Below, piece by piece: positions 17,579 through 40,423 of a DNA stretch of 64,000 nt. How positions within the stretch are numbered: position 1 is the first letter of the stretch; every line of letters begins with the position of its first letter. Position numbers and translations under genes: made by a program. Source of the DNA: Thermobifida alba (GTDB lineage: Bacteria; Actinomycetota; Actinomycetes; Streptosporangiales; Streptosporangiaceae). The DNA lies in the NCBI RefSeq assembly GCF_023208015.1, contig NZ_CP051627.1:620001-684000 (forward strand). The letters run 5' to 3'. Below the pieces are notes generated by a model. It was not told the origin of the DNA. It made no database searches and saw only the letters and a program-made list of their open reading frames with translations.

Positions 17579-17600
17579 GGGAACCCCCTGATCTGGACAG

Positions 17601-17637
17601 TGACAAGATTCCACCCCGTCCGCAAGGAACTTGTCAA
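17601..17637. promoter_or_regulatory. TetR operator candidate overlapping the doxX promoter
   Basis: TGACAAG (17601-17607) and CTTGTCA (17630-17636) form a perfect 7-bp inverted repeat, extended inward by TTCC/GGAA with a one-base bulge. On the minus strand TTGACA (17632-17637) and TGGAAT (17608-17613), with an 18-base spacer, form a promoter for the DoxX gene inside this repeat. A repressor bound here would block it. Confidence 0.6.
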
Positions 17638-17683
17638 TGGCAAGATTGGGGTCGGGGGCGGCACCCGCCGCGAGTGAGAGGAC

Positions 17684-18241
17684 GTGAGGACGATCGGCGC
17701 CCGCAGCTACCACCACGGCGACCTGAGACGGGCCCTGCTGGACGAGGCGGTCGCCGCGATCGCCGAGTCGGGGCCGTCCGGATGGAGCCTGCGTGAACTG
17801 GCCCGCCGCGCGGGAGTCTCCCACGCCGCGCCCGCCCACCACTTCGGCGACAGGGCGGGACTGCTCACGGCGGTCGCCGCCGAGGGCTTCGACCTGCTCG
17901 CCGAGGCGCTGGCCGGCGCGGGCGGGGACCTGCTCGACATGGGAGTGGCCTACGTGCGCTTCGCCGACACCCACCGGGCCCACTTCGAGGTGATGTTCCG
18001 CCCCCGGCTGTACCGGGCCGACGACCCGAAGGTGCGCGCCGCCCGGGCCCGTACCCACGACGTCCTGCACGGCGGGGTCCGGCGGGCGGTGGACGGGGAG
18101 AGCGACACCGCCGCACGGGCCGCCTGGTCGATCGTGCACGGCTTCGCCGAACTGTGGCTCAACGGCGCCCTGCCCGCCGCCCCGGGCGACGACCCGGGGG
18201 AGGCCGCCCGTCCCGTCATCCGGCTGCTGTTCGACCGGTGA
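17684..18241 (+). CDS. TetR/AcrR-family transcriptional regulator
   Basis: The 185-residue protein has a typical N-terminal TetR helix-turn-helix (SLRELARRAGVSHAAPAHHF) and a helical ligand-binding C-terminus containing AAWSIVHGFAELWLNG. From memory this is the TetR C-terminal WHG-type domain. It is probably the repressor of the divergent DoxX membrane protein and of itself through the palindrome at 17601-17636. The GTG at 17684 follows GAGAGGACG. The ligand cannot be inferred. Confidence 0.85.
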   Translation: MRTIGARSYHHGDLRRALLDEAVAAIAESGPSGWSLRELARRAGVSHAAPAHHFGDRAGLLTAVAAEGFDLLAEALAGAGGDLLDMGVAYVRFADTHRAHFEVMFRPRLYRADDPKVRAARARTHDVLHGGVRRAVDGESDTAARAAWSIVHGFAELWLNGALPAAPGDDPGEAARPVIRLLFDR

Positions 18242-19082: not shown

Positions 19083-19180
19083 CCGCCCGGCCGCCGGGGA
19101 AGCAGGCGTCCCGGCCGCGTCGACGGAGGCGGGCCGCACGTGCCGCCCGCCCCGCCGTCCCCGAGAGGGAGCGGAAGGCT

Positions 19181-19213
19181 TTGAAATTCGACTTACTAGT
19201 AAGTTAGTATAGT
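19181..19213 (+). promoter_or_regulatory. Promoter with perfect 14-bp operator palindrome upstream of the P450 gene
   Basis: ACTTACTAGTAAGT at 19191-19204 is a perfect palindrome. It lies between TTGAAA (19181-19186) and TAGTAT (19205-19210), hexamers 18 bases apart. A repressor bound in the spacer would block the promoter. A related imperfect palindrome occurs at 26743-26758 in the same cluster. Confidence 0.6.
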
Positions 19214-19359
19214 GGCGGGACGCCCGACAGGGTCCCAAAGCCCGGGGCCGGCCGGGGTCTGGAGACCAAGAAGGCCGACCGGTGCCGTCTGCGTGCGGAA
19301 GCGCCCGCGCGGGCGGCGTGGGTGTCGACCGGATTCGTGTGGTGGAAAGGACGACCGTC

Positions 19360-20607
19360 ATGGCCGCTGGTGCCCAGATCATCGACGACCTCCTGAGGCC
19401 CGATGTCAATGCCGACCCGCACCAGGCGCTCGCCCGTCTGCGTGAGCTGGACTCGATCCACTGGAGCGAGCCCCACCGCGCCTGGCTGGCCACCCGCTAC
19501 AACGACATCTCGGAGGCCTACCGGAACCGTGCGCTGTCGTCCGACCGGGTCCGCCCGCTGCTCGCCATGAACAAGGACGAGAACGAGCAGTCGACCGCGA
19601 CGACCCGCGTACGGGAACTGCTGAGCCAGTGGATGGTGGTCAGCGATCCGCCGCAGCACACGCGGCTGCGCCGCCTCGCCGCGGGCGCCTTCAAGCAGCA
19701 GCGGATCGTGGACATGAACCAGCGGATCCAGCAGCTCGTCGACGACCTGCTCGACCGGTTCATCGCCGGGGGGCACACCGACCTCATCGAACACCTCGCC
19801 TACCCGCTGCCCGCGATCGTGATCGCGGAGATGCTCGGCGCTCCCCAGGAGGACCGTGACCGCTTCCGGCACTGGTCCGACGAACTGGCGCTGGTGGCCT
19901 TCGGGGCCGGGGGAGACGCCAGGGAGGAGCGGCACGAGCGGGCGCTGCGCGGGATGGAGGAGATGGTCTCGTTCTTCCGCGAGCTCATCGAACTCCGCCG
20001 CCGGGAACCGGGGGACGACATGCTCACCGCGATGATGGCCGGCGACGGGAGCGGCGACGAGCTCACCGAGGACGAACTCGTCGCCATGTGCGCCCTGCTG
20101 CTCTTCGCCGGCCACGAGACGACCACGAACTCGATCGCCAACGGGATCGTGGCCCTGCTCCAGCACCCCGACCAGCTGGCCCTGCTGCGGGAGGAGCCGG
20201 ATCTCATCTCCTCCGCGGTGGAGGAGCTCCTCCGCTTCGACGGCCCGATCAAGGTGATCAACCGCTGGGTGACGCAGGACACCGAGCTGGCCGGTCAGCA
20301 GATCCGGGCCGGAGAGCGCGTCTACCTGGTGCTGTCCGCGGCCAACCGGGACCCCGCGAAGTTCACCGACCCGGACGCCCTGGACCTGCGGCGCAGCCCC
20401 AACCCGCACATCGCCTTCGGCAAGGGGATCCACGCCTGCCTGGGGGCGCAGCTCGCACGCCTGGAGACCAGAATCGCCATCGGCAGCGTCGTGCGGCGGC
20501 TGCCGGGACTGCGCCTGGCAGGAGAACTCTCCTACAAGGAGAGCCTCGCCGCCCGCGCCCTCCACAGGCTTCCCGTCGCCCACGACGCACTGCCCACCCA
20601 CCGGTGA
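19360..20607 (+). CDS. Cytochrome P450
   Basis: The 415-residue soluble bacterial P450 should hydroxylate a hydrophobic substrate using electrons from the ferredoxin encoded next. Visible landmarks are the I-helix oxygen-binding motif AGHETT (about residues 250-255), the K-helix ExxR (EELLR) and the heme loop FGKGIHACLG with the axial ligand Cys360. The N-terminus lacks a membrane anchor. The ATG at 19360 follows GGAAAGGA; a frame open upstream to 19282 lacks such a site. The preceding palindromic promoter and the downstream ligases suggest inducible catabolism. The substrate is unknown. Confidence 0.93.
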   Translation: MAAGAQIIDDLLRPDVNADPHQALARLRELDSIHWSEPHRAWLATRYNDISEAYRNRALSSDRVRPLLAMNKDENEQSTATTRVRELLSQWMVVSDPPQHTRLRRLAAGAFKQQRIVDMNQRIQQLVDDLLDRFIAGGHTDLIEHLAYPLPAIVIAEMLGAPQEDRDRFRHWSDELALVAFGAGGDAREERHERALRGMEEMVSFFRELIELRRREPGDDMLTAMMAGDGSGDELTEDELVAMCALLLFAGHETTTNSIANGIVALLQHPDQLALLREEPDLISSAVEELLRFDGPIKVINRWVTQDTELAGQQIRAGERVYLVLSAANRDPAKFTDPDALDLRRSPNPHIAFGKGIHACLGAQLARLETRIAIGSVVRRLPGLRLAGELSYKESLAARALHRLPVAHDALPTHR

Positions 20608-20629
20608 CGACCGCCCGCAGGAGACGAAC

Positions 20630-20827
20630 GTGAAGATCATCGCAGACAGCAGCCGGTGCGAAGGCCACGCCCAGTGCAACATCGCCGATCCGGACCTGTT
20701 CCCGCTGAACGAGGACGGCTACACCGCGCTCACCGACGCGGGGATGCAGGTCCCGCCGGACGAGGAGCGGCAGGCGCAGCAGGGGGTGTCGGCCTGCCCC
20801 GTGGCGGCGCTGCGCCTGATCGACTGA
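20630..20827 (+). CDS. [3Fe-4S] ferredoxin, P450 redox partner
   Basis: The 65-residue protein has the CYP-type ferredoxin pattern: Cys10-x2-His13-x2-Cys16 (CEGHAQC) and Cys56 followed by Pro (SACPVAAL). His in the fourth-ligand position predicts a [3Fe-4S] rather than a [4Fe-4S] cluster. It starts 22 bases after the P450 stop with a CAGGAG ribosome site, so it is co-transcribed and almost certainly feeds electrons to that P450. No ferredoxin reductase gene is seen nearby. Confidence 0.93.
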   Translation: MKIIADSSRCEGHAQCNIADPDLFPLNEDGYTALTDAGMQVPPDEERQAQQGVSACPVAALRLID

Positions 20828-20864
20828 CCCGTCCCGGCCCGGCGGCGCTCCTCCGGGGCAGGCC

Positions 20865-20894
20865 CGGTGCGGCCGGATCCCTCCGGCCGCACCG
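20865..20894 (+). terminator. Perfect 13-bp hairpin after the ferredoxin gene
   Basis: Arms at 20865-20877 and 20882-20894 are exact complements with a 4-base loop. The hairpin lies 37 bases after the ferredoxin stop and probably ends or weakens the P450 transcript. Confidence 0.65.
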
Positions 20895-21014
20895 GCGGTC
20901 CCCGGGGACCGTGCCGTGTCCCGCTCCGGGACCGGCGAACGCGCGCAGAGCGGAGGCGGCGCACGGGCCGGAAGGGCAAGGGTGACCACGGAAACGGAAA
21001 GAGGACGAGGACAG

Positions 21015-21947
21015 GTGACACAAGAGGCACTCCCCGGTGTGCCGGCACCGCTGCGAGAGGCCCTGGCAGCGGCCCCGGTCCCGCAGGTGACCACGGTGGC
21101 GGGATGCGACATCTCGTGGTTCTCCTGGGGGGACGCCACCCGGCAGCCCGTGGTGTTCGTCCACGGCGGGGCCGCGCACAGCTGGTGGTGGAGTTTCACC
21201 GCGCCGCTGCTCAGCGACCGCTACCACGTGGTCGCACTCGACCTGTCCGGGCACGGTGACAGCGGTCACCGTGCCCACTACTCTTTCGCGGGGTGGGTGG
21301 AGGAGGTCGCCGCGGTGGTCGAGCGGCTTCCCGGCGGGCTCCCGCCCATCGTGGTGGGGCATTCGATGGGCGGGATGGTGGCCACGCTCTTCGCCCTCGA
21401 ACACGGAAGCCGAATGGCGGGGCTCATCAGCATCGACTCGCCGCTGTCGAAGGCGGACGCGGCCAACTTCACCAAGGACAACGGGGTCCTGGCGCAGACG
21501 AGGAGCTACTCCAGCAGGGACGAGGCCGTGGCCAGGTTCCGCCTGCTGCCGCCCCAGGACGTCGTCGCCGACGAGCTCCTCGCCCACGTCGCCCGGCACA
21601 GCGTGGCGTCCACCGGCGACGGCCGCTGGTCGTGGAAGTTCGACGCGAAGGTCTTCCTGGAGCATCCGGAGGACCGCCTCAAGGACCTGCTGGGCGTGCT
21701 CGACTCCCTCGTCTGCCCCCTGGGCGTCATCGCGGCGGAGAAGTCCGACGTGGTCCCCGAGTCCGACCGGGAACGGATCGCGGACATGGCGCGCACGGCG
21801 CCGGCCGAGCGCCCTGTCGTGTACTGGCCGATCGACGGGGGGCACCACCTCATGTTCGACCGCCCGCTCGAACTGGTCGCGGCGATCCGCGACACCATCG
21901 AGGAGTGGCGGAGCCGCCGGAAGACGGCAGAGGAGGCAGGATCGTGA
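21015..21947 (+). CDS. Alpha/beta-fold hydrolase
   Basis: The 310-residue product is a classical alpha/beta hydrolase. An oxyanion-hole HGG motif (VFVHGGAAHSWWW) precedes the nucleophile elbow GHSMGG with Ser117. The C-terminal catalytic His lies in DGGHHLMFDRP. It would hydrolyse an ester, lactone or C-C bond in the pathway of this cluster. Start choice: the GTG at 21015 has GGACGAGG upstream, and another GTG at 20982 would add 11 residues. The stop overlaps the following SDR gene by 4 bases, so the two are coupled. Confidence 0.85.
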   Translation: MTQEALPGVPAPLREALAAAPVPQVTTVAGCDISWFSWGDATRQPVVFVHGGAAHSWWWSFTAPLLSDRYHVVALDLSGHGDSGHRAHYSFAGWVEEVAAVVERLPGGLPPIVVGHSMGGMVATLFALEHGSRMAGLISIDSPLSKADAANFTKDNGVLAQTRSYSSRDEAVARFRLLPPQDVVADELLAHVARHSVASTGDGRWSWKFDAKVFLEHPEDRLKDLLGVLDSLVCPLGVIAAEKSDVVPESDRERIADMARTAPAERPVVYWPIDGGHHLMFDRPLELVAAIRDTIEEWRSRRKTAEEAGS

Positions 21948-22723
21948 CGGAGCGCACGTGTGTGGTCACCGGAGCCGCGTCCGGGATCGGCGCCGCGGTG
22001 GCCGAGAGCTTCCGGGCGAGCGGACACACCGTCATCGGCGTGGACGTGGCCGGAGGCGACGTCCACGCGGACCTGTCCCGGCCCGACGGGCGTCGCTTCG
22101 CCGTCGAGCAGCTCACGCGGCGGGCGGCCGCCGTGGACGTGGTGGTGGCCTGTGCGGGACTGGCGCGGCCCGAGCCGGTGACCCTCAGCGTCAACTACTT
22201 CGGCGTGGTCGACCTGCTGGCGGGGCTGCTGCCGCTGCTGCGGCGCGGCCGGTCGCCCCGGGTCGTGGTGGTGTCGTCGGTGGCCGCGGTGCACCGGACA
22301 CTGGACTCCCTCGTCCAGGCCTGCCTGGACCACGACGAGGAGGCGGCGCTGGACCTGGGGCGGCGGGCGGTGGAGGCGGGCAAGGGCATCGGCATCTACG
22401 CCGCGTCCAAGCAGGCCCTGGCGCGCTGGGTGCGGCGGACGGCGTCCACCGAGGCGTGGGCCGGACACGGGATCGCGTTGAACGCGGTGGGGCCGGGGGT
22501 GGTGCTGACCCCGATGATCGCCGCGGAGTGGGCCAGCCCGGCCGGGCGGGAGGCCCTGAGCAGGCAGGTTCCGATGCCGTTGACCCGGGGGCCGATCGAC
22601 GTGGGCCAGATCGTGCGGACCGTGCGGTTCCTCGCGGACCCGGACAACACCGCCGTCACCGGGCAGACGGTGTATGTCGACGGCGGTGCCGACGCACAAC
22701 TCCGGGGGGACCGGCAGTGGTGA
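21944..22723 (+). CDS. Short-chain dehydrogenase/reductase
   Basis: The 259-residue SDR binds NAD(P) through TGAASGIGAAVAESF and has the YAASK catalytic Tyr-Lys pair. It ends with the usual VTGQTVYVDGGAD. The central region between strand 4 and the catalytic Tyr is shorter than in most classical SDRs and resembles 3-alpha-hydroxysteroid dehydrogenase-like members. It probably oxidises a secondary alcohol made by the P450. The GTG overlaps the hydrolase stop (GTGA). A 12-bp hairpin follows. Confidence 0.88.
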   Translation: MTERTCVVTGAASGIGAAVAESFRASGHTVIGVDVAGGDVHADLSRPDGRRFAVEQLTRRAAAVDVVVACAGLARPEPVTLSVNYFGVVDLLAGLLPLLRRGRSPRVVVVSSVAAVHRTLDSLVQACLDHDEEAALDLGRRAVEAGKGIGIYAASKQALARWVRRTASTEAWAGHGIALNAVGPGVVLTPMIAAEWASPAGREALSRQVPMPLTRGPIDVGQIVRTVRFLADPDNTAVTGQTVYVDGGADAQLRGDRQW

Positions 22724-22775
22724 CCGGGGGCCGGGGCACGGTCGGGTAGCGGATGCCCGCGACGGTTTGGCCGTC

Positions 22776-22811
22776 CTCCTCCCGGGGCTCCGACGGCCTC
22801 CCCGGGAGGAG
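22776..22811 (+). terminator. 12-bp hairpin after the SDR gene
   Basis: Arms at 22776-22787 and 22800-22811 pair perfectly around a 12-base loop, about 50 bases after the SDR stop. Confidence 0.6.
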
Positions 22812-23102
22812 CGGCACGCAGGACCGGTCCGTTTCCGGGGCCCGCGCACCGGGAGGCCGGTGCGCTCCGCACCGTCGCGGTCACTCTCCCGGGGGGAGTT
22901 TCAGCCGCATGACCTGACAGAACAGGGTTTCTGTCGCGCTGTGGGCCGGAGGGTCGCCAACACTGGCGGGTCTGTCCGGTGTGATGTAGCTTATAGTCCC
23001 CCGTCAAACAAACGGCCGTCAGATAAAGGCCGGTGCCGCTGACTGTGGGCAGCGCGGGGCTTCGGCCTGTGGAGCGATGTCAGGAAGGAAGCGTGGTCAG
23101 AG

Positions 23103-24839
23103 GTGAGCGAGCTGCAGTCCTTGTCGGGCTCTGGATGGGTCCGTGCGGAGACCGTTGGAGACCTGCTCGACAGCCGGGCGGAGGCGCTCGGCTCTGAGCC
23201 GGCCCTGGTCTTCCCGGAGGAGCGCGCGACCTACCAGGAGCTGGCGGCCCGAGCCGACGCTCTGGCGAGAAGCATGCTCGCGATGGGGGTGGACCGGGGC
23301 GACCGGGTGGGAATCCTCATGCCGGCCTGTACCGAGCTGGCCGCACTGCTGTTCGCGGCGGCGAAGATCGGAGCCGTCGCGGTTCCGGTCAACGCCCGGT
23401 TCAAGCCGGTCGAGCTGGAGCACATCGTCAAGCACTCCGGGATGAAGGTGCTGTTCACCGCGGAGACGCCGGTGAACTCGCCGCTGGAGCTGCTGGTCCG
23501 CACCTTCCTGGAACTGGCGGACGTCACGGGCGGAGCGGTGGAGCTGCCCACACTGCCGGAACTGCGGCGCGTGGTGGTGAGCGAGGGCGCACAGGTCCCG
23601 GGGTACGCGATCGGCGTGGCCGAGGCGATCGAGATGGGCGGTGCGATCAGCGCCGAGCAGGTCCGCGCCCGGCAGAGCTCCGTCCGCCTGCGGGACACGA
23701 TGATGCTGGTCTACACCTCGGGGACCACCGCGGCCCCCAAGGGCGCGATGCTGAGCCACGAGGCGGTGAGCCGCCTGACCACGGGGATCGTCGAGCGGCT
23801 CGAACTGACCCGGCAGGACAACGTCTGGACCGCCATCCCGCTCTTCCACGGCGGCGGTATCAGCTTCCTGATCAGCACGCTCAGCGCCGGCGCGACCTTC
23901 GTCCACCCGGGACTGTTCGACCCCGCCACCACGCTCCCGCTCCTCATCGACAACCGGGTGACCGTGGCGCTCGCCGCCTTCGAGACGATCTGGCTGCCGG
24001 TGCTCTCGCGCTACAACCCGCAGGAGCACGACCTGACGAGCATCCGGGCGGTGATGGTCGTCGGAGTGGAGGAGCGGCTCCGCCAGATGGCGGAGGCCCT
24101 GCCGTGGGCGACGCAGGTCTCGTGCGTCGCGATGACGGAGTCCTGCGCCTTCCTGTCGCTGCACCGGCTGGACGACCCCTTCGAGGTCCGGGTCACCACC
24201 GGCGGCCACCCCATGCCCGGCATGGAGGTCCGCGTGGTCGACCCCGAGACCGGGGAGGACCTGCCGCCCGGCGCGGAGGGGGAGCTCCTCTTCCGGGGAC
24301 CGAACGCCTTCGACGGCTACTTCCGCGATCCGGAGCTGACCCGGGAGGTCTTCGACGAGGAGGGCTGGTTCCACTCCGGTGACGTGGTCCGCCGGGACGA
24401 GGACGGCCGGATCACCTTCGTCAGCCGGTTGAAGGACATGCTGAAGGTCGGCGGGGAGAACGTTTCGGCCGCGGAGGTGGAGGGGCTGCTCATCACCCAC
24501 CCCGCGGTGAAGCTGGCCCAGGTGGTCGCGGCCCCGGACGACTACTACGTGGAGGTCCCCGCCGCCTTCATCGAACTCAAGCCCGGCCAGGAAGCGACCG
24601 AGGAGGAGCTGATCCACTTCTGCCTGGGCAAGATCGCCACCTACCGGGTGCCGCGGTACGTACGGTTCGTCACCGAGTGGCCGATGTCCGGCACGAAGAT
24701 CAAGAAGGTCGACCTGCGCGCGCGGATCGCCGAGGAGCTGAAGGCCAAGGGCATCACCAGAGCACCGCGGCTCGACAGCAGGGCGGGGATGGTCGCCGAC
24801 ACCGGTGGTGCGGGGGAGCCGCAGCCCGCTGCGGGCTGA
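23103..24839 (+). CDS. Acyl-CoA ligase (AMP-forming), first copy
   Basis: The 578-residue adenylate-forming enzyme would activate a carboxylic acid to its CoA thioester. The P-loop YTSGTTAAPKGAMLSHEA starts near residue 204. The adenine-binding and hinge regions (GYFRDPELTREVFDEEGWFH) are present, as is the C-terminal catalytic Lys in MSGTKIKK, near residue 532. It is closely similar along its whole length to the ligase at 26962, so the two arose by duplication. The GTG at 23103 has GGAAGGAA upstream. A TATAGT hexamer at 22992-22997 could be its -10, without a clear -35. Confidence 0.9.
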   Translation: MSELQSLSGSGWVRAETVGDLLDSRAEALGSEPALVFPEERATYQELAARADALARSMLAMGVDRGDRVGILMPACTELAALLFAAAKIGAVAVPVNARFKPVELEHIVKHSGMKVLFTAETPVNSPLELLVRTFLELADVTGGAVELPTLPELRRVVVSEGAQVPGYAIGVAEAIEMGGAISAEQVRARQSSVRLRDTMMLVYTSGTTAAPKGAMLSHEAVSRLTTGIVERLELTRQDNVWTAIPLFHGGGISFLISTLSAGATFVHPGLFDPATTLPLLIDNRVTVALAAFETIWLPVLSRYNPQEHDLTSIRAVMVVGVEERLRQMAEALPWATQVSCVAMTESCAFLSLHRLDDPFEVRVTTGGHPMPGMEVRVVDPETGEDLPPGAEGELLFRGPNAFDGYFRDPELTREVFDEEGWFHSGDVVRRDEDGRITFVSRLKDMLKVGGENVSAAEVEGLLITHPAVKLAQVVAAPDDYYVEVPAAFIELKPGQEATEEELIHFCLGKIATYRVPRYVRFVTEWPMSGTKIKKVDLRARIAEELKAKGITRAPRLDSRAGMVADTGGAGEPQPAAG

Positions 24840-24858
24840 CGCCGTCCCCGTGGCACAC

Positions 24859-24902
24859 GGACGCCTGGCTCCGCCGGACGAGGACGGTCGGGCCAGGCGT
24901 CC
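24859..24902 (+). terminator. 11-bp hairpin after the first ligase gene
   Basis: Arms at 24859-24869 and 24892-24902 are exact complements with a 22-base loop, followed by GCCTTT. Confidence 0.55.
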
Positions 24903-24907
24903 GCCTT

Positions 24908-25359
24908 TGTGGCCGGACGCACGCGCCCGCGCACAGGTGCGGACGTGAGCGGTGCCGGGGCGCGGGGCCGCCGGCCGAGGACGCCGGTGGCGGCAGCGGT
25001 GCCGTCGCAGGTGGCTCTGCTCCGGTGCCGACGTGCGCGCGCCCGCGAGGGGCGGTGCCCTCATCGGCGCCTGCGGGCACCGGGGAGCGGAGTCCGGATT
25101 CTTGAGGGCGGGCGCGTCGGAGGGCCAGGCCGGGGCGGCCACGGTGGGCGCGGTTGGTCGGCCCACGCCGGTGCCGCCCACCGGAGAGGCCCGCTCCCGG
25201 GGTGCCGTCGACCGGACGTCCCCGCGTCGCGGGGCCGGGGAGCCCGTGACCGGGAGGGGAGCGCCGCCGTGCCCCGGTGCGGCCCGCCGGTCCCCGGCTG
25301 TCGACGGCGTCTCGGTTCCGCGCCGCCCGGGGCCGACCGGGCGGCGCGGAACCGGAAGG
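24908..25359. other. 450-base intergenic stretch, no gene seen
   Basis: It lies between the convergent ligase and acyl-CoA dehydrogenase genes. All six frames show only Arg/Pro/Gly/Ala-rich shadow translation and no repeat, RNA or conserved motif is evident. Confidence 0.5.
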
Positions 25360-26523
25360 TCAGAACGAGCGCGGCAGCCCCACGCTCTCGGCGATGGAGT
25401 TGCGGGCCATCTCGCTTGAGATGGGGCCGATGCGCAGCAGGCGGCTGTCCCGCCAGTACCGCTGGGCGTCCGTCTCCGCCGCGTAGCCCATGCCGCCCAG
25501 GATCTGGATACCGAGGTCGGCGGCGCGGTTGGCGTACTCGGAGGCGACGACCTTCGCCATGTTGGCCTCCAGACCGCAGGGCTTGCCCTGGCTCTGCAGC
25601 CAGGCGGCGTTGAACACCATCAGCTCGGCCTGCTTCTGCCACATCACCATGTCGGCGATGTAGTGCTGGAGCGACTGGAACTGGCCGATCTTCCGGCCGA
25701 ACGCGGTCCGAGTGTCCATGTGGGCGAGGGACTCTTCGAGGACGCCGTCGATGATGCCGGTGCACAGCGCCGCCAGGAGGATCCGCTCGTTGTTCAGGGT
25801 TCCGAGCAGCGTGTACCAGCCCCGGCCGACCTCTCCCAGGACCAGGTCGTCGGGGACGAAGACGTCGTCGAGGAACACCCCGCACGAGCCGACGGCCCGC
25901 ATGCCCAGTTTGGGGATCTGGCGGGTCTCCACACCGGGGGAGTCCGCGGGGACCAGGAACAGGGTCTTGCCCTGGGTCCTCTTGGGCGCCTCCTCGTCCG
26001 AGATGGCGAGGAGGAGCAGGTAGTCGGCGACGTGTGCGGCGGTGGACCACATCTTCTGCCCGGTGATGCGCCAGCCGCCGTCCACCTTCCTCGCCTTCGT
26101 GCGCATCCCGCCGAGGAGGTCGGTGCCGCCCGACGGTTCGGTGACCGCGATCGAGAAGCGCAGTCTGCCCTGGGCCAGTTCCGGGAGGAACCGCTCCTTC
26201 TGCTCCTCGGAGCCGTACAGGCCGACGGACTTGGCGCCGGCGAACGACGAGATCGCCCAGACCCAGGTGAGGCCGGCGAGTGACCTGGCGAGCTCCCGCG
26301 CGGTGATCGCCTGGACGACGATGTCGCCCCCGGATCCTCCGTAGCGTTCGTCGATGCCGATGCCGTGCAGTCCCGCGGCGCTCATCTTGTCCCAGAGTTC
26401 GAACGGGTAGGCGAACTCTTCCTTCTCCAGGTCCCGGGCCACGTTCTTGGGACAGTTCTTCTCGACCCAGTCGCGGACGACCTTCCGAAACTCCTGCTGT
26501 TCCGCAGTGAACGAGAAATCCAC
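25360..26523 (-). CDS. Acyl-CoA dehydrogenase
   Basis: The 387-residue flavoprotein should introduce a 2,3-double bond into an acyl-CoA made by the neighbouring ligases. The FAD/substrate motifs AVTEPSGGTD and ITGQKMWSTAA are clear. The usual C-terminal catalytic Glu of the YEGT type is replaced by RIGPISSEM. Instead, Glu246 in LNNERILLAA lies where isovaleryl-type and long-chain-type enzymes carry their base, so the enzyme is probably active. The start ATG at 26523 has GGAAGAG upstream. It faces the second ligase gene across a 440-base regulatory region. Confidence 0.92.
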   Translation of the reverse strand: MDFSFTAEQQEFRKVVRDWVEKNCPKNVARDLEKEEFAYPFELWDKMSAAGLHGIGIDERYGGSGGDIVVQAITARELARSLAGLTWVWAISSFAGAKSVGLYGSEEQKERFLPELAQGRLRFSIAVTEPSGGTDLLGGMRTKARKVDGGWRITGQKMWSTAAHVADYLLLLAISDEEAPKRTQGKTLFLVPADSPGVETRQIPKLGMRAVGSCGVFLDDVFVPDDLVLGEVGRGWYTLLGTLNNERILLAALCTGIIDGVLEESLAHMDTRTAFGRKIGQFQSLQHYIADMVMWQKQAELMVFNAAWLQSQGKPCGLEANMAKVVASEYANRAADLGIQILGGMGYAAETDAQRYWRDSRLLRIGPISSEMARNSIAESVGLPRSF

Positions 26524-26742
26524 GGCTCTTCCTTACGAGGTGGGATCTTTGAGAGGGGGAGGGCTCGGACGGCTGCCGGCTCGCCGGACCGGAGGGGCCT
26601 CCGGGGCCGGACGGTGTCGAGGGCGGGTGGTGGCGCGGCGACGCCGGCAGGTCGGGGAAGCGGCGGGAGCGCCGTGCCGCCGCGGCGGTGAACGCGACCG
26701 CCGCACGGGGGCGGAAGCCGAACCTCCGGTGCCACCAAAGTT

Positions 26743-26758
26743 GACTTACCAGTTAGTC
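26743..26758. promoter_or_regulatory. Operator-like palindrome between the divergent dehydrogenase and ligase genes
   Basis: GACTTACCAGTTAGTC is an imperfect palindrome (arms GACTTAC/GTTAGTC, one mismatch). It resembles the perfect ACTTACTAGTAAGT site before the P450 gene and lies on the dehydrogenase side of the region, about 220 bases from that start. Confidence 0.5.
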
Positions 26759-26864
26759 GATTTCCAGCCCCCCGGCGGTGCGTGGCGGGCGCGGCCCGGA
26801 GGGGTGGCCGGTCGGGCCCGGCGGGGGTGCGGGACTCCGCGTCCGGAGCGGGTGCCGATTAATC

Positions 26865-26908
26865 AACCAACCGTATGGTTGACAGTACGGTTGCCGTGTG
26901 GCTAACGT
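26865..26908 (+). promoter_or_regulatory. Promoter and TetR operator candidate of the second ligase gene
   Basis: AACCAACCGTATGGTTGAC (26865-26883) contains the perfect inverted repeat CAACC-GTAT-GGTTG, and a further half-site GTACGGTTG follows at 26885-26893. TTGACA (26879-26884) and TAACGT (26903-26908), 18 bases apart, form a promoter overlapped by the repeat. The site matches 15 of 19 positions at 30723-30741, in front of the cluster's TetR gene. Confidence 0.6.
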
Positions 26909-26961: not shown

Positions 26962-28671
26962 GTGGTGGTAAAGGCTGCGCAACGCAGATGGATCGCCGTT
27001 ACCAGCTTGGGAGACCTGTTGGACGCACGGGCAGCGGAGCACCCGGACCGCGAAGCCCTCGTGTTCCCCGACAGGCGGATGACCTACGCGGAGCTCGCCG
27101 AACGCGCCGACTGGTTCGCGCGCGGCTTCGTCGGCCTCGGCGTCGGCGCCGGCGACCGGGTGGGGATCCTCCTGCCCGACTGCGCCGACATCATCGCGGC
27201 CATCTTCGGCGCGGCCAAGGTCGGCGTCATCCCCGTCCCGGTCAACGGGAGGTTCAAGGAGTACGAGCTCTCCCACCTGCTCAACCACTCCGGTATGAGC
27301 GTGCTGGTCACCAGGCCCCCGCAGCCCGGCGGGACCGACTTCCCCGAACTCGTCGACGCGGTGCTGCCGGGACTGGCAGAGGCCCGTCCGGAGCGGCTGG
27401 ACCTGGCCGACGCCCCCGACCTGCGGCAGGTCCTGCTGCTCGGCAGCGAGGAACGCCCCGGCTACCTCCCGGAGGCGAGCTTCGACGCGGTGGCCCGGGC
27501 CGCCTCCGCAGACGAGGTGACCAGAAGGGCGCAGCGGGTCAAGACCCGCGACACGGCCATCATCATCTACACCTCCGGGACCACCGCGGCGCCCAAGGGA
27601 GCGATGCTGAGCCACGAGGCGTTGTGCCGCTTCGCGGACACCCTGGCGAACGACCGCTTCCGGCTCACCCCCGACGACCGGGTGTGGGTGCCGCTCCCCC
27701 TGTTCCACATCGGCGGCATCGCCTTCTCGGTCATGACCATCCACGCCAGGAGCGTGTACGTGCATTCCGGGTTCTACCGGCCCGACACCGCTCTCCAGCA
27801 GTTGCAGGAGGAGCGGTGCACCCTTGCGCTCCCCTGCTTCGAGACGATCTGGAAGCCGGTCCTCGACCGGCCGGACTTCGCCGAGTACGACCTGTCCGCG
27901 CTCCGGACCGTGCTGGTGACCGGGGTGGCCGAACGGCTGCGGGCGATGCAGGAGCAGCTGCCGCACGTGGTCCAGGTGTCGACGTTCGGCGCCACGGAGG
28001 CGTGCTCCGTTCTCTCGGTGAGCTCGGTCGACGACTCCCTTGAGGAACGGGTGACCACCGGCGGCCAGGTCCTGCCCGGCATGGAGTGCCGGGTGGTCGA
28101 CCCCGAGACCGGAAAGGACGTCCCGCCCAACACCCTGGGCGAACTGATCTACCGCGGTCCGAACTGCTTCCACGGCTACTTCCGCGATCCGGAGCTGACC
28201 CGGAAGGTCTTCGACGAGGACGGCTGGTTCCACAGCGGCGACCTGGGCACGATCGACCCGGACGGCCGGGTGACCTTCGTCAGCCGGGTGAAGGACATGC
28301 TGAAAGTCGGGGGCGAGAACGTCGCGGCCGCCGAGGCCGAGGGCTATCTGATGCGCCACCCCGCTGTGGACTTCGCCCAGGTGGTCGCCGCACCGGACGC
28401 CTACTACACCGAGGTCCCCGCGGCGTTCATCCAGTGCAAGCCGGGGATGACCGTCACCGAGGAGGAGCTCATCGACTTCTGCCTGGGGAAGATCGCCACG
28501 TACCGCGTCCCGCGGTACGTCCGCTTCGTCGACGAGTGGCCCATGTCGGGGACCAAGATCAAGAAGTACGTGCTGCGCGAGCAGATCACCCAGGAACTCC
28601 GTGAGAAGGGCATCACCGAGGCGCCGCGGCTCAGGTACCAGGCCAAGGCAGCGGCGGGCGAGGCGTCGTAG
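26962..28671 (+). CDS. Acyl-CoA ligase (AMP-forming), second copy
   Basis: This 569-residue enzyme is a paralogue of the ligase at 23103. The same motifs occur at matching places: IIYTSGTTAAPKGAMLSHEA, GYFRDPELTRKVFDEDGWFH, and the catalytic Lys in MSGTKIKKYVL. Differences are concentrated in the central acid-binding region (for example CFETIW with a different surrounding, and ATEAC), so the two copies may accept different acids of one pathway. The GTG at 26962 has AGGGGAGC upstream; a second GTG follows at 26965. A strong 13-bp hairpin follows the gene. Confidence 0.9.
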   Translation: MVVKAAQRRWIAVTSLGDLLDARAAEHPDREALVFPDRRMTYAELAERADWFARGFVGLGVGAGDRVGILLPDCADIIAAIFGAAKVGVIPVPVNGRFKEYELSHLLNHSGMSVLVTRPPQPGGTDFPELVDAVLPGLAEARPERLDLADAPDLRQVLLLGSEERPGYLPEASFDAVARAASADEVTRRAQRVKTRDTAIIIYTSGTTAAPKGAMLSHEALCRFADTLANDRFRLTPDDRVWVPLPLFHIGGIAFSVMTIHARSVYVHSGFYRPDTALQQLQEERCTLALPCFETIWKPVLDRPDFAEYDLSALRTVLVTGVAERLRAMQEQLPHVVQVSTFGATEACSVLSVSSVDDSLEERVTTGGQVLPGMECRVVDPETGKDVPPNTLGELIYRGPNCFHGYFRDPELTRKVFDEDGWFHSGDLGTIDPDGRVTFVSRVKDMLKVGGENVAAAEAEGYLMRHPAVDFAQVVAAPDAYYTEVPAAFIQCKPGMTVTEEELIDFCLGKIATYRVPRYVRFVDEWPMSGTKIKKYVLREQITQELREKGITEAPRLRYQAKAAAGEAS

Positions 28672-28856: not shown

Positions 28857-29909
28857 TCACCGGGTGCGGTAGCGCCGCACTCCGTCCACCTCTTCGCCGG
28901 TCAGCACCCCCTGGAGTTCGAGCAGGTCCAGGTGGGCCTTGGTCTCCAACACCGCCAGCATCCGGTTGAACGGGTCCAGCTCCGCCAGGGTGCGCTCCCT
29001 GCGCGTCCAGGTCAGGCCGGCGGCGACGGAGGCCGCACTGTCCCGCCCCCGCGCCACCTGGGCGGCCGTCGCGGCGAGGCGGGCGTCGTGGTGGGCCAGG
29101 AGTTCGTCGACGCGGGCGTGGACGCTGGGAGAGACCGGACCGTGGGCGGGCAGCATGCGGGCGTCCGGCAGCGCACGGAGACGACGCAGCGAGTCGAGGA
29201 AGTCCCGCAGCGGTTGGGCGACCGGCGCGGCCTCGAAACCGATGGAGGGGGTGATGTGCGGCAGCACGTGGTCGCCGGTGAACATCACAGCCCCGCGCGG
29301 ATCGTGGAAGACCAGGTGGCCGCGGGTGTGGCCGGGAGTCGTCACGGCGGTCAGGGAGCGTTGCCCCGCGGGGACGACGGCGCCGTCGAGCAGCCAGTGG
29401 TCGGGCTCCTCCCAGATCTCCTGGGGCATGCCGCCCGTGCCGTCCACCGTCCGCAGCTGCGCCACGAGGTCCCGGGCGCCGCAGCGGACCAGTACGTCCA
29501 GCTGCGCTTCGAGGCCGTGCACCATCTTTCGCACCGCGGACAGCGAGTCGCGCTCGCCGGCGCCCAACTCCACGGTCGCGCCGAAGAGCCGCCGCAGTTC
29601 GACGGCCAAGGTGAAGTGGTCCCGGTGCAGGTGGGTCACGAGGATCCGGCGTACGTCGGAGAGGCCGCGGCCCAGGGCGGCCAGGGCGGCGGCGAGCCCT
29701 TCGAGGGCCCCGCTGCCGATCTGGCCGGAGTCCACGAGCATCGTGCCGCCGGTGCTGTCCAGATCAACGGCGTACACGTTGACGGCTTTCAACGCGTCTC
29801 CGGGAAGAGGAAGGGGAATCCTGTGGATTCCCGGAGCCACGGTGTAGACCCCCGGCTCGCTCCAGGGCCGCTCGGGGTCCTCCGCACGGAGCGGCAGCAG
29901 TTCGGCCAC
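28857..29909 (-). CDS. Metallo-beta-lactamase-fold hydrolase
   Basis: The 350-residue protein has the zinc signature HxHxDH (THLHRDH), the downstream His in TTPGHTRGHLVFH, Asp in FTGDHVLP and a further His (AHGP). It is a glyoxalase II-like hydrolase, perhaps acting on a thioester or lactone intermediate. The C-terminal helical domain resembles that of actinobacterial acyl-pathway family members. The GTG at 29909 was chosen because GGGAGGG lies 6 bases upstream; a GTG at 29945 with GGAG is an alternative adding 12 residues. It reads in the same direction as the dehydrogenase and TetR genes. Confidence 0.85.
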   Translation of the reverse strand: MAELLPLRAEDPERPWSEPGVYTVAPGIHRIPLPLPGDALKAVNVYAVDLDSTGGTMLVDSGQIGSGALEGLAAALAALGRGLSDVRRILVTHLHRDHFTLAVELRRLFGATVELGAGERDSLSAVRKMVHGLEAQLDVLVRCGARDLVAQLRTVDGTGGMPQEIWEEPDHWLLDGAVVPAGQRSLTAVTTPGHTRGHLVFHDPRGAVMFTGDHVLPHITPSIGFEAAPVAQPLRDFLDSLRRLRALPDARMLPAHGPVSPSVHARVDELLAHHDARLAATAAQVARGRDSAASVAAGLTWTRRERTLAELDPFNRMLAVLETKAHLDLLELQGVLTGEEVDGVRRYRTR

Positions 29910-30015
29910 GTGTGTCCCTCCCGTCACGTGTCTGTCGTCGGTCACGCTCGCTCCGTCCGTCGGCCGGTGTCGCGGCCCCGCCGCTGTCGGAGGCGAGAAA
30001 CCCGGGACCCGCGCG

Positions 30016-30669
30016 TCAGCGGGTGCAGGAGGCCAGGCCGGCCTCCGAGGCGATGCCCCGGATCGCCGTCTCCGCCAGGTGCGACGCGATCTGCTGGGCG
30101 GAGAACTCGCCGTCGGGGCGGTACCAGCGGTAGACCCAGTTCGCCGAGCCCAGGATCGAGAGGGCGGCGAGCTTGGGGTCGACGTCCTCGCGGACCTCGC
30201 CGGCGGCTTTCGCCTCTTCGATCAGTGAGCGGAACACCCCCTGGTAGGAGTGCTTGTCGCCCAGGACCTGCCGGCGCCTGTCCTCGGGCAGGGCGGAGAG
30301 CTCGTGCAGGAAGACCGCGGTGGGGACCAGGTTGTGGCAGGTGTGCTCCACGTGCCCCCGGATCACCCGGTGCAGGCGCTCCAACGGGGAGGGCGACGGC
30401 CCCTGGGCGAGCGCGGTGACCACGGCCAGCCCCTTCTGGTGCACCTCGTTGACCACCTCGAAGAGGAGGTCCTCCTTGGACTGGATGTAGTAGTACAGGC
30501 TGCCTTTCAGCATGCCGATCCGGTTGGCGATCTCCTGCAGCGAAGCGGCCTCATAGCCCCTCTCGTAGAAGACCTGGGTGGCTGTTTCGATCAGTTCGGC
30601 CCAGCGCTCTTTCCGCGGCTTGCGCTCCGCCGCCGAGCGGCGTCCTGCCAGCCCTGTCGGGTTCGCCAT
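30016..30669 (-). CDS. TetR-family regulator of the CoA-ligase cluster
   Basis: The 217-residue repressor has the TetR helix-turn-helix (SLQEIANRIGMLKGSLYYYI) and the SKEDLLFEVV helix. The C-terminal domain contains LGSANWVYRWYRPDG, which from memory is typical of KstR2-like regulators of acyl-CoA catabolism that respond to CoA thioesters. It probably represses the second ligase gene and itself, because the same 19-bp motif is found before both. Its ligand would then be a CoA ester made by the ligase. The ATG at 30669 follows GGGGGAAAC. Confidence 0.88.
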   Translation of the reverse strand: MANPTGLAGRRSAAERKPRKERWAELIETATQVFYERGYEAASLQEIANRIGMLKGSLYYYIQSKEDLLFEVVNEVHQKGLAVVTALAQGPSPSPLERLHRVIRGHVEHTCHNLVPTAVFLHELSALPEDRRRQVLGDKHSYQGVFRSLIEEAKAAGEVREDVDPKLAALSILGSANWVYRWYRPDGEFSAQQIASHLAETAIRGIASEAGLASCTR

Positions 30670-30722: not shown

Positions 30723-30741
30723 AACCTACCGTTTGTTAGAC
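30723..30741 (-). promoter_or_regulatory. Autoregulatory operator candidate of the TetR gene
   Basis: AACCTACCGTTTGTTAGAC lies about 55 bases before the TetR start and matches the operator at 26865-26883 at 15 of 19 positions. This places the repressor and the ligase gene in one regulon. Confidence 0.55.
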
Positions 30742-34442: not shown

Positions 34443-34485
34443 GTCGGGACGGCGGGATTTGGACCCACGACCCCTTGACCCCCAG
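34443..34485 (-). repeat. Left attachment repeat (3' tRNA-Pro fragment)
   Basis: Identical to 47172-47214 except for one G/A difference in the T-loop. It covers the tRNA from the anticodon loop to the 3' end and is not part of a complete tRNA. It marks the far end of the island. Confidence 0.85.
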
Positions 34486-34661
34486 GCGTTCAGACGGCTT
34501 CCGTGAGACCGATTTCCGCGTGATTCTGGGCCTAAGATCATGCAGAGCACGTCACGACATGCACGGTTCCCATGATTCTGGTCCCCCTCACCATCGTCTG
34601 CGCTGGCATCCTTTCGGGCTTCGTGCTCCTGGACTCGGACGTAGCCGAGTAGCACGAGGCT

Positions 34662-35633
34662 CATTGAGGTTTTCTCAACGGATCAGTGGAGCGGGGGCGA
34701 GGCGGTGAGGGCGCCCTCTGACTCTAGGCAGCCGTGAAGTCCCTGGTAGGACGGTTCTCGGCACAAGACTGCGTCTACTGAAGCAGAGGCTTCCGTTGGT
34801 TCCCTATTCTGCCATGCTCGATGTTCCCCGCCCTGTGGTCACCTACTTGGCTCGCCTGCTGGCCGCCTACCGCCGCACCATCAGCACCCCACGCCGCTCG
34901 CGTGCACTTACCCCGTTCCGTCAAGCGGTGATGGTCCTGCGCTGGTTCCGTGACGGCAGCCGTGCCGATGCCCTGGCCCGCGACCATGCCGTCAGCCTGG
35001 CCACCGCCTATCGTTACGTACACGAAGGCATCGACGTACTCGCCGCCCAAGCCCCTGAGTTGCAGCAGGTGCTGTGCGAACTGCGTGACCGGGACGAGTC
35101 TCTGGCCATCCTCGAAGGCAAGGTCTTCGCTACTACCCGGTGCGCCCAGCCAGGTGAGCGCGGTACCGATGTGTGGTACTCGGCGCACAAGCACCACCAC
35201 GGCCCCAACATCCAGTTCTTTGCCGATGCCGCAGGCAGCCCGCTGTGCGTCTTCGATGCCGAACCCGGATCGGTCTCGGAGCTGGGTGCCGCGCATCCAC
35301 GCCCTGCCGCTGCTGCGCCACGCCGCGGCCCGCGAGGGCCTGATGGTGCTGGCTGATGGCGGCTACGACGGCGCCGGTGTCGGCATCCACACCCCGGTCC
35401 GCGCCTCTCGAAGGGTGTCGTATGCGCGCATGCACATCGACAACCTGGCCTACAACCGGCTGCTGCGCGGCCTGCGCGCGGTGGGCGAACGCGCCATGGC
35501 CGTACCGGTCGGACGGTGCACAACTCTGCGCCGCATCAGCCTCAGCCCCTCCGCTGTTGGCCGTATCGTCCAGGCTGCCCTGGTCCTCCACCGCTACGAA
35601 CACTCGATCCGTTGAGAAAAGAAAACCTCAATG
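34662..35633 (+). mobile_element. IS5-family insertion sequence (defective)
   Basis: Inverted ends CATTGAGGTTTTC (from 34662) and GAAAACCTCAATG (to 35633) continue inward to TCAACGGATC/GATCCGTTGA, with a 4-base TTTT difference between the two ends. They enclose a single broken transposase. The flanking CT on both sides may be a 2-base target duplication. Its right end cuts into a relaxase gene fragment. Confidence 0.75.
34796..35615 (+). pseudogene. IS5-family DDE transposase, frameshifted
   Basis: The N-terminal part, from 34796 to about 35285, has the HTH region (SRADALARDHAVSLATAYRY) and the DDE-domain start (GTDVWYSAHKHHHGPNIQFF). The frame then shifts by one near 35285, and the C-terminal part continues to 35615 in the second frame (VLADGGYDGAGVGIHTPV, NLAYNRLLRGLRAVGERAMA). 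Catalytic Asp residues lie in both parts, so the transposase is inactive unless programmed frameshifting joins them. No obvious slippery heptamer is seen. The ORF is the only gene of the IS. Confidence 0.8.
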
Positions 35634-36332
35634 CTGGCACCAGCCGACTTGATGGGTGATCGTGCCAATGAGCAGGTCTGCCTCGCGGATCAGGCAGGCC
35701 GTTTCCTGCACGCGCAGGATCGACACAGGGCGTCGCCCCGAACGGATCTTTGAACAGTTGGCCGTACCGGCTGGTGGAGAGGCAGGCGTGTGCGGCGAGT
35801 TCGGAAAATGAACAGCGGCGTGCTTCGTCGGTGTAACGTCCCTTACGCTGCCGCCTTGTTGTTCGGTGGTGTGGATTGCCGTTGCGAGCATGTTCGTCTT
35901 GCCCGCGCCTGTCGCGTCCTCCACGATTAGCAGCGGATCATGCGAGGCGACCGCTGCGGAGGTGTCGAACTGACCTACGTCGAGGCGCTGCCCGAGCACG
36001 GCCGCGTGTTCGCGCATGTCGGGGTGCTCCGGCTCCCGTTCGGGGATATGGGCGGTGATGAGTGCGCGCAGTTCTGTCTCGACCTGCACTACCCGCAAGT
36101 TCGTCAGGTTCGCGACATGCTCCGGCGCAGGCGAAGTCGGGCGGGGAATCGAGAAACAGTCCTCAAGCGCCAAGGTGTTTGCCACTGCGATCTGTTCGCG
36201 CAACTCCTGAGGGGCGCCGCGGACGCCTGCCTCAGTGCTGATGCGGGTGGCGGGTTCTTGGACGGTGCGAGTCCACGCCGACTCACCAGCAGCGCACCGA
36301 TCCAACGCCTTTGATGCGATCCGCTGCACCAA
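35628..36332 (-). pseudogene. Fragment of a MobF-type conjugative relaxase/helicase
   Basis: The minus-strand frame of 234 codons contains a Walker A motif in a RecD/TraI-like setting (LLIVEDATGAGKTNMLATAI), followed by VTPTKHAAV. Upstream lies a helical stretch resembling the linker between relaxase and helicase domains. Such proteins nick and unwind transferred DNA. The N-terminal relaxase domain with its Tyr and three-His motif is missing, and the C-terminus is cut by the IS end at 35633. It is therefore a remnant and shows that the island once encoded conjugation functions. Confidence 0.5.
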
Positions 36333-36519
36333 GAGTCATCCGTCGATGCCGGCGCACGCGCTGGCCTGCACGTCAGTAGTTCGGGGTCGTAGCCGGCTCG
36401 CACAACTCTGTGACCGATGCGGATTTTCTCCCGCAAGGTCGCCGATTTCTTCGCGGGCCGCTGATACGTCCTGAGCCGGAGGACGACTACCGGCCCATCG
36501 TCTCACCCTGAAGACGACG

Positions 36520-37110
36520 ATGAAGATGGCTGTACTCGGAGCCGCGGGCATAGTCGGTCGCGAGGCCGTGACCGAGGCGCTGGCGTGAGGGAACCAGATC
36601 ACCGCGGTCTCGCGACCACGGCATCCACGACCGGCCCGAGGTTCGACGCATCGACGTCGGAGTAGACGACGTCGGCCCCACACTGACCGGTGCCGACGCC
36701 GCGGTTTTGGGGCTCCGCCCCGCCGCTGGGCAGGAGGATCAGCTCACCGGGCTCACCATGGCAGTGCTGGAAGCCGCCGTGGCGACGGGCACCTGGGTGC
36801 TCGTCGTCGGCGGCTCAGGCCCTTTCACCTCGCCCTGCAATGACCGACGGCGCGTAGTCGACGAGAGCAGCCTCGTCCCCGACTAATGGCAACCGATCGC
36901 CCGTGTCAACATCGCCCAGTTGGGTGTCTGCGGTGACCATCGCGCCCGGGGCTGGACCTATTTGAGCCCACCGGCTGTCCTCGAGTCCGTCGACCGCAGC
37001 GGGCGGTACTGGTGCGGTTCCACCGTGCTGCTCACCGACGATCGTGGCCAGTCCTGCCTCTCCGCCGCAGACTGTCGTTGACGAGATTGAGAACCCGTCG
37101 GCTGAGCGCC
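36520..37110 (+). pseudogene. Broken NAD(P)H-binding (NmrA-like) protein
   Basis: The frame starts with a Rossmann motif (MKMAVLGAAGIVGREAVTEA) and meets a TGA stop at 36586-36588. Coding sense resumes in another frame (DVGPTLTGADAAVLGLRPA, VLEAAVATGTWVLVVGGSGP, ARGWTYLSPPAVLE) with a further stop near 36884, and shifts again near 37075 (VVDEIENPSAERPQRS). Joined together these give one NAD(P)-dependent epimerase-like protein of about 200 residues. At least two stops and two frameshifts make it a clear pseudogene. Confidence 0.75.
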
Positions 37111-37171
37111 CTCAACGGTCGTATCGACCTGAGGTCCTGGGCTGTCGGTATCGATCCCTGGCACCGCGTGG

Positions 37172-37666
37172 TCACTCGGCGTCCGGGCACACCAGGAACA
37201 CGGGAAAGTCCCCAGCGATCCGGGCGAACGACTCCAGTGGCTCGCTCCGGTCGACCCCCAGATGCGGACGGGCTCCGGGAGCCACATCGAGATAGCTCTG
37301 CAGGATCGGTGCTCGCTCGTCGACCGGTACCTCGCGCAAGCGAACCTGCCGGCGCTGCCGATGGCGCACGAGGACTGCCCGTCCGTGCGCCGCTCGGACA
37401 TTGCGCACCCAGTCGGCCGTCTCACCGAGCATCGACACCAGGTAGTCGTCGCCGCTGACCTCGGCCACCGCCACAGCGACGGCGATCGTCCGCCCGGTAC
37501 GACGCCCGGCAACGATCAACGTTGCGCTGGCACGGTCCGTCAGCACTCCTCGTGCATGGTGGCGAGCCGCGACTCGGTTCAGTGCGCGGGCGATCGATGA
37601 CGGGCGTCCACCTGGATACAGGCGGCGCGCGATCGCATGGTGGACCGTTCTCAGGATACGGTTCAT
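37172..37666 (-). CDS. Nitroreductase/quinone reductase family (F420-type split-barrel) protein
   Basis: The 164-residue protein resembles deazaflavin-dependent nitroreductases: LIVAGRRTGRTIAVAVAVAE, then DDYLVSMLGETADWVRNVRA, and RHRQRRQVRLREVPV. Members use F420H2 or related flavins to reduce quinones or nitro compounds. The ATG at 37666 overlaps the stop of the upstream membrane-protein gene by 4 bases (ATGA), and that gene in turn overlaps the MFS gene. The three form one coupled cargo operon. Codon use is less GC-biased than in the core genes. Confidence 0.72.
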   Translation of the reverse strand: MNRILRTVHHAIARRLYPGGRPSSIARALNRVAARHHARGVLTDRASATLIVAGRRTGRTIAVAVAVAEVSGDDYLVSMLGETADWVRNVRAAHGRAVLVRHRQRRQVRLREVPVDERAPILQSYLDVAPGARPHLGVDRSEPLESFARIAGDFPVFLVCPDAE

Positions 37667-39518: not shown

Positions 39519-39568
39519 GTTCCTAAAGTAGCACAGCGGTGTCGAGACAGGCGAAGTAGAATGAACTT

Positions 39569-40279: not shown

Positions 40280-40423
40280 CGACCGCACCGGGCGTGCCCG
40301 TTCACGCGGGCACGAATCTTAACGGTGCTGATGGGAGTAGCTGAGTGCATTCGGCAGAACAGAGGTTGAGTTGCAGACTGCCAGAGGCCGGGGAGAAGTG
40401 GGGTAGGAACTAGAGTCCGGGTC

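Follow-up and report, generated by a model that had tools for sequence, protein, structure and literature searches.

Two palindromes in an acyl-CoA gene cluster

We analyzed a 64,000-nucleotide stretch of the Thermobifida alba genome (contig NZ_CP051627.1, positions 620,001 to 684,000; hereafter the window), in which a cytochrome P450 gene and a set of acyl-coenzyme A (acyl-CoA) dehydrogenase and ligase genes are preceded by two related palindromes. Genome comparison suggests that these palindromes are operators of TetR2, a TetR-family protein encoded outside the window, and that they are distinct from the presumed operators of TetR1, the TetR-family regulator of the window itself. The window has a G+C content of 71.8%, and the genome consists of one contig of 4,903,256 bp. 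The relevant features, in window coordinates, are as follows.

19181-19210, plus strand: promoter-like TTGAAA-18-TAGTAT, the sole promoter-like site in 19100-19400 (shuffle mean 0.0)
19191-19208, plus strand: candidate TetR2-type operator ACTTACTAGTAAGTTAGT in an 18-bp frame, axis 19199|19200; top window place of a held-out matrix
19360-20607, plus strand: cytochrome P450, first gene of a presumed operon (PF00067, E 1.5e-31)
20630-20827, plus strand: ferredoxin (PF13459)
21015-21947, plus strand: alpha/beta hydrolase (PF12697)
21944-22723, plus strand: short-chain dehydrogenase, overlapping the hydrolase stop codon (PF13561/PF00106)
23103-24839, plus strand: acyl-CoA ligase 1 (PF00501), 56% identical to ligase 2
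25360-26523, minus strand: acyl-CoA dehydrogenase (Pfam match), 54% identical to one in the second cluster described below (cluster 2)
26744-26761, plus strand: second candidate TetR2-type operator ACTTACCAGTTAGTCGAT; second-best window place of the held-out matrix
26865-26883, plus strand: TetR1-type candidate operator AACCAACCGTATGGTTGAC, in the same intergenic region as ACTTACCAGTTAGTCGAT
26962-28671, plus strand: acyl-CoA ligase 2 (PF00501), 44% identical to the cluster-2 ligase
28857-29945, minus strand: metallo-beta-lactamase-fold protein, downstream of TetR1 (PF00753)
30016-30669, minus strand: TetR1 (PF00440 and PF17932), 37% identical to TetR2
30723-30741, plus strand: TetR1-type candidate operator AACCTACCGTTTGTTAGAC, before TetR1

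The initial annotation had described a perfect palindrome before the P450 gene and a close relative of it in the dehydrogenase/ligase regulatory region, and both are exactly where it placed them. The first, ACTTACTAGTAAGT, occupies 19191-19204, about 160 bp 5' of the P450 start codon (19360). The second, GACTTACCAGTTAGTC, occupies 26743-26758 between the divergent genes for acyl-CoA dehydrogenase (start 26523) and acyl-CoA ligase 2 (start 26962), whose start codons are about 230 and 210 bp away, respectively. As had also been claimed, the two differ from the other operator pair, AACCAACCGTATGGTTGAC (26865) and AACCTACCGTTTGTTAGAC (30723). With up to three mismatches, ACTTACTAGTAAGT occurs at exactly two places in the window, compared with a mean of 0.08 in shuffled windows; a single shuffle out of 100 contained two or more. 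The palindromes are real and their occurrence is above chance.

The same motif in a second catabolic cluster

A search of the whole genome (4.90 Mb) with ACTTACTAGTAAGT at up to three mismatches identified 15 places, against 8 for a reversed-pattern control, and the motif is thus not common in the genome; a common motif is what the initial annotation had named as speaking against its proposal. Two of these places are those in the window, five lie at 3375386-3400789 (genome coordinates, here and below unless the window is named), one is at 550545, and seven have no assigned role. Five of the 13 non-window places are therefore found within 25.4 kb, where they precede genes of another acyl-CoA catabolic cluster (cluster 2, 3.37-3.40 Mb). 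The probability of such grouping is 1e-8 for this interval, which was chosen post hoc, and about 1e-4 after a simple correction.

Cluster 2 encodes an aromatic-acid-type major facilitator superfamily (MFS) transporter, a short-chain dehydrogenase, a BaiCD/FadH-like flavoenzyme, an enoyl-CoA hydratase, a FadJ-like protein, acyl-CoA dehydrogenases, a biotin carboxylase, a carboxyltransferase, a thiolase, a branched-chain-type ATP-binding cassette (ABC) transporter, an acyl-CoA ligase and a luciferase-like oxidoreductase. Most of these names rest on matches under curated cut-offs; NCBIfam listed a match at the cut-off for three of the 19 proteins scanned (short-chain dehydrogenase, biotin carboxylase and thiolase). 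The carboxyltransferase subunit is nearest to propionyl/methylmalonyl-CoA enzymes.

Combining a weight-matrix scan with the 18-bp pattern described below brought the candidate sites in cluster 2 to nine, all of them non-coding and 14-138 bp from the nearest gene start (two of these starts were set by hand). Five of the nine, those identified by the ACTTACTAGTAAGT search, had been in the matrix that found the others, and only those five are independent of it. Site 3396412 scored 9.7 and was kept for its single mismatch to the 18-bp pattern, and two further places from the matrix scan, 3391268 (score 9.0, coding) and 3385462 (7.0), stayed outside the set. The weakest right half among the cluster-2 candidates belongs to 3380010, and a further candidate, TACTCACGAGTA, is located directly 5' of the biotin carboxylase gene. 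Of the ten places scoring at least 9 in the cluster-2 region, coding ones included, nine lie in non-coding DNA, which makes up 20% of this region (P 5e-6).

The short core TTACYN4RGTNA occurs at 24 distinct places in the genome, including six in cluster 2, one at window 19191 and one before a thioesterase-like gene; it misses window 26744 as well as 3376370, 3380010 and 3387369. Its forward/reverse counts against the control are 17/16 vs 2/3 in this genome (G000) and, in three further genomes of the same genus, 8/8 vs 4/4 (G001), 11/4 vs 3/5 (G002) and 10/16 vs 2/5 (G003). The exact pattern ACTNACYNNTNAGT has a single match in G003 and is absent from both G001 and G002.

A probable 18-bp operator frame

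We aligned 14 anchored sites, two from the window and 12 others, on their better half, leaving out the thioesterase row of G003. T4, A5, C6 and T14 are present in all 14 sites, as are a pyrimidine at position 7 and a purine at position 12; G13 is present in 13, position 3 is T (12 sites) or C (2), and positions 8-11 are variable. These constant positions are symmetric about an 18-bp frame with a 4-bp spacer, and the functional frame is probably the 18-bp ACTTACY-N4-RGTNAGT. The 14-bp palindrome of the initial annotation stands as a sequence, whereas as a functional unit it appears, by the same 14 sites, to be a sub-register of this frame. Mean mirror matches are 4.4 of 7 on the 18-bp axis and 3.5 on the 14-bp axis, in a set most of which had been gathered with a 14-bp matrix, and the thioesterase rows, picked by orthology, fit the longer frame (TACT-CGCG-AGTA, TACC-CACG-AGTA). 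At window 19191 the spacer is AGTA, so that a pair of overlapping 18-bp frames begins at 19187 and 19191, offset by 4 bp, which accounts for the perfect 14-mer found there. The TetR-family protein DarR occupies palindromes that overlap, as a dimer of dimers (PMC10636190); a similar arrangement on the 19187/19191 frames would be speculation by analogy.

A held-out matrix built from 13 non-window sites, including the G003 thioesterase row, was run over the 64 kb. The overlapping frames at 19187/19191 ranked first (24.4 and 23.3 bits) and 26744 second (19.6), followed by a place at 15.0. The top score was reached by none of 60 and none of 300 column-shuffled matrices.

TetR2 as the candidate regulator

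The initial annotation had proposed that the cluster may also be controlled by a second regulator whose gene lies outside the window. Our comparison supports an operator family with such a distant regulator, and the protein it singles out is most likely TetR2 (3378416-3379036, minus strand), encoded about 2.73 Mb from the window, inside cluster 2 and behind the enoyl-CoA hydratase gene; a candidate site at 3379911-3379928 stands just before this hydratase-TetR2 pair. TetR2 has an N-terminal TetR_N helix-turn-helix domain (PF00440, 66.7 bits, cut-off 24) and a C-terminal ligand/dimer domain (PF17932, 108 bits, cut-off 26.4). It matches the structure 3dcf of the Protein Data Bank (PDB) over its full length (386 bits) and is its ortholog. 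The source organism of 3dcf is T. fusca, whose gene product is 84% identical to TetR2 and, by eye, one residue off the 3dcf chain.

Orthologs of TetR2 are 82-89% identical in all three same-genus genomes (G001-G003), and residues 42-73, a segment containing the recognition helix, do not differ among the four Thermobifida genomes. In a search of 56 further relatives, the best match is 36% identical. A contig scan with the TetR2 alignment (best 80 loci, 138 relatives) returned T. fusca and T. cellulosilytica at 82-84% and the other 78 loci at 42% or less. No ACTTAC-type palindrome was seen at the other-genus TetR loci L024-L039, which carry other palindromes, for example ATACCGACTGGTCGGTAA in L029 and a relative in L034.

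Outside the two clusters, the site at 550545 lies before the thioesterase-like gene (550624-551286; function assigned by eye), whose orthologs are 83-86% identical. Its promoter retains the core TACY-N4-AGTAACAT in all four Thermobifida genomes; G001 and G002 depart from it in the outer bases. A search for TetR1 at E <=1e-12 did not find it in G001-G003, where the matches are TetR2 (37-39% identity) and orthologs of a third TetR protein, TetR3 (30-32%). Because the core is kept where TetR1 was not found, TetR1 can hardly be what maintains the thioesterase site in these genomes.

Another TetR protein encoded in cluster 2 (3402098-3402778) was considered as the regulator and rejected. Its gene is divergent to a transporter gene, the pair is also present in G002, and the intergenic repeats in both genomes are of a different type (GGACA...TGTCC).

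Alternative explanations

The preceding comparison bears directly on the idea that TetR1 binds both motif types, the second being a variant form of the TetR1 operator, a possibility that the initial annotation had named as fatal to its proposal. TetR1 shares with TetR2 37% identity and the same Pfam domains, and the TetR1- and TetR2-type operators have a 4-bp spacer and an ACY core in common. Yet the thioesterase core persists in genomes where TetR1 was not found, nine candidate TetR2-type sites surround TetR2, and the recognition helices of the two proteins are unlike (FTKPAIYYYF in TetR1, MLKGSLYYYI in TetR2), so that we consider a single TetR for both motifs improbable. Slightly less probable again is that the motif is read by a third conserved regulator, either TetR3 (3227576-3228121) or a non-TetR protein. 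TetR3 has the same domains, including PF17932, is 90-92% identical across all four genomes, and has a presumed operator, ACATACCGGCCAGTATGT (3228252-3228269), with the same 4-bp spacer, which suggests an operator layout common to the TetR1/TetR2/TetR3 subfamily. However, this site has A at position 3, where the 14 anchored sites have T or C, and scans showed no group of TetR2-type sites in 16 kb around TetR3. It seems very improbable indeed that the palindromes arose by chance or are repeats without a regulatory role: seven of the 15 genome matches lack an assigned role, a number near the control's 8, and the score of 26744 is not far above chance, but the grouping in cluster 2, the non-coding placement, the conservation at an orthologous promoter and the held-out matrix result all argue for a regulatory motif.

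Several observations also count against TetR2 as the regulator of both clusters. Shuffles preserving local composition give 2-4 places scoring at least 10 in the cluster-2 region vs 8 real ones, and non-coding DNA here is A+T-richer, which alone favours such a motif. The short core exceeds its reversed control in all four genomes, including those that lack the cluster; because it is above control in G001-G003 as well, it constitutes by itself weak evidence. No consensus promoter was recognised around the 26744 site, and each of the two start codons is over 200 bp away from it. Since its score of 19.6 was reached somewhere in the window by six of 300 column-shuffled matrices, whereas 24.4 was never reached, the 19191 site is assigned firmly and the 26744 site as probable. 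The search for TetR2 orthologs yielded only four genomes, all from a single genus, a narrow footprint, and the matrix scan detected no strong site around the TetR2 gene in G001-G003. Finally, TetR1 and TetR3 share domains and presumed operator layout with TetR2, so that cross-binding is possible.

Proposed regulation of the two clusters

On balance, we regard it as quite probable that the palindromes are TetR2 operators and that TetR2 represses the window genes and cluster 2 together until released by a pathway intermediate. A TetR2 dimer would read ACTTACY-N4-RGTNAGT. The 19191 operator fills the spacer of TTGAAA-18-TAGTAT and runs into the -10 hexamer; because of this placement, repression by steric block is suggested at the P450 operon, where bound TetR2 would cover the -35/-10 spacer and prevent access of RNA polymerase. 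In the dehydrogenase/ligase region TetR2 would act beside TetR1. The releasing intermediate would most likely be an acyl-CoA thioester, as the target genes and analogy with related regulators lead us to infer. Release would turn on the P450, ferredoxin, hydrolase, dehydrogenases and ligases of the window, along with the MFS and ABC transporters, flavoenzyme, hydratase, beta-oxidation enzymes, carboxylase and thiolase of cluster 2. The shared motif, its placement, its conservation and its co-occurrence with TetR2 are read from sequence; binding and repression by TetR2, the identity of the inducer and one substrate for both clusters are what we infer.

The cluster-2 thiolase gene has both a TetR2-type site (3387369) and a TetR1-type site, ACCAACCGTTTGATCCAC, at 3387490 beside the ribosome-binding site. 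The latter has one mismatch to the strict TetR1 pattern, which had been loosened before the search, so that its exact match is not independent; the TetR1-type evidence as a whole consists of three sites, to which the pattern itself was in part fitted. The thiolase and window 26744/26865 regions would be two doubly controlled promoters. A further possibility, which we put forward tentatively and hold to be somewhat doubtful, is that TetR1 and TetR2 are cross-wired, with sites in each other's clusters, so that a split pathway is gated by two related sensors; in the sister species the pathway would have been lost, leaving an orphan TetR2 acting mainly on the thioesterase-like gene. A weak TetR1-like site (three mismatches, minus strand) was also seen at window 23003-23020, about 90 bp 5' of acyl-CoA ligase 1.

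TetR2 in the sister species

In G001-G003, the 27-50 kb read around TetR2 showed no cluster 2. Elsewhere in these genomes a genome-wide search with the cluster-2 flavoenzyme, the cluster-2 gene so searched, gave matches of at most 40% identity. The window acyl-CoA dehydrogenase likewise had no match in G001-G003 at E 1e-120, a level that finds its cluster-2 paralog in its own genome. Among 60 genomes, matches at E <=1e-120 were confined to its own, because of which the window cluster could not be footprinted.

Upstream of TetR2, which is intact in G001-G003, remnants of the hydratase 3' end are still recognizable. In G002 the remnant is 159 bp long and 82% identical (E 1e-41); those of G001 and G003 are 96 bp (77%, E 4e-15) and 66 bp (73%, E 2e-5). 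The hydratase-TetR2 arrangement is likely ancestral, the catabolic genes having been lost while the repressor stayed. Near TetR2 in T. cellulosilytica (about 298474-303128 of G001, by eye), repeated CSPRTWGWS-like open frames suggest a clustered regularly interspaced short palindromic repeats (CRISPR) array.

Other features of the window

A 43-bp direct repeat (98%) is present at window 34443-34485 and 47172-47214, the second copy lying inside tRNA-Pro(ggg) (47171-47246). The pair encloses DNA of lower G+C content and an integrase-like open reading frame (46829-47146, by eye), and window 34443-47246 is probably an integrated element. At window 17590-18241, a TetR-like gene (17684-18241, by eye) and a small reading frame are transcribed divergently, and CTTGTCA/TGACAAG repeats separate the two.

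Comparison with known systems

In the PDB searches, TetR2 and TetR1 each matched KstR2, the TetR-family regulator of cholesterol ring catabolism. It controls acyl-CoA catabolism genes from several operators and responds to an acyl-CoA inducer. Its operator, AnCAAGnnCTTGnT, is unlike the TetR2 motif in sequence and spacing. NCBIfam lists KstR, not KstR2, for TetR2, at 26 bits compared with a cut-off of 280.

After 3dcf, the PDB entries closest to TetR2 are the c-di-AMP-binding DarR proteins of mycobacteria and Rhodococcus, but at only about 80 bits. The DarR operator ATACT-N4-AGTAT (PMC10636190) agrees with the TetR2 motif in its TAC(T)-N4-(A)GTA core and its N4 spacing, the latter counting in favour of TetR2, whereas the flanks differ (ATAC vs ACTTAC). 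The DarR lysine that reads the C of TAC (Lys44) aligns with Lys55 of TetR2. The adjacent Gly45, where a change to Val abolished DarR binding, corresponds to Pro56, so TetR2 lacks the Lys-Gly pair of DarR (PMC10636190), a further point against TetR2 as the reader of the motif. The candidate targets of TetR2 are acyl-CoA catabolism genes, unlike those of DarR. BkaR of mycobacteria is an autoregulated TetR-family repressor of an accD1-bkdC operon with a few other targets elsewhere and a 16-bp palindrome, GTTA(N)T-N4-A(N)TAAC (PMC3920632); its 4-bp centre resembles that of the TetR2 motif, but its half-site differs, and ACTTACY-N4-RGTNAGT does not contain the BkaR core.

Among the literature matches listed for Thermobifida and TetR there is no paper on the operator or ligand of 3dcf; the term '3DCF' in PMC8874777 denotes peptides and not the structure. 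The motif and regulon are likewise unreported among the matches listed for Thermobifida, TetR and acyl-CoA operators, and the motif strings returned none. Unlike TetR2, the T. fusca counterpart represented by 3dcf stands without cluster 2. The sister species offer a natural case of a repressor that may have outlived its regulon. The TetR2 regulon proposed here would be a new one of a well-known kind: for a TetR protein with a near-identical solved counterpart we suggest which operator it reads, which genes it governs and what its role is likely to be, and two distant clusters of uncharacterised enzymes would thereby be joined into one testable pathway.

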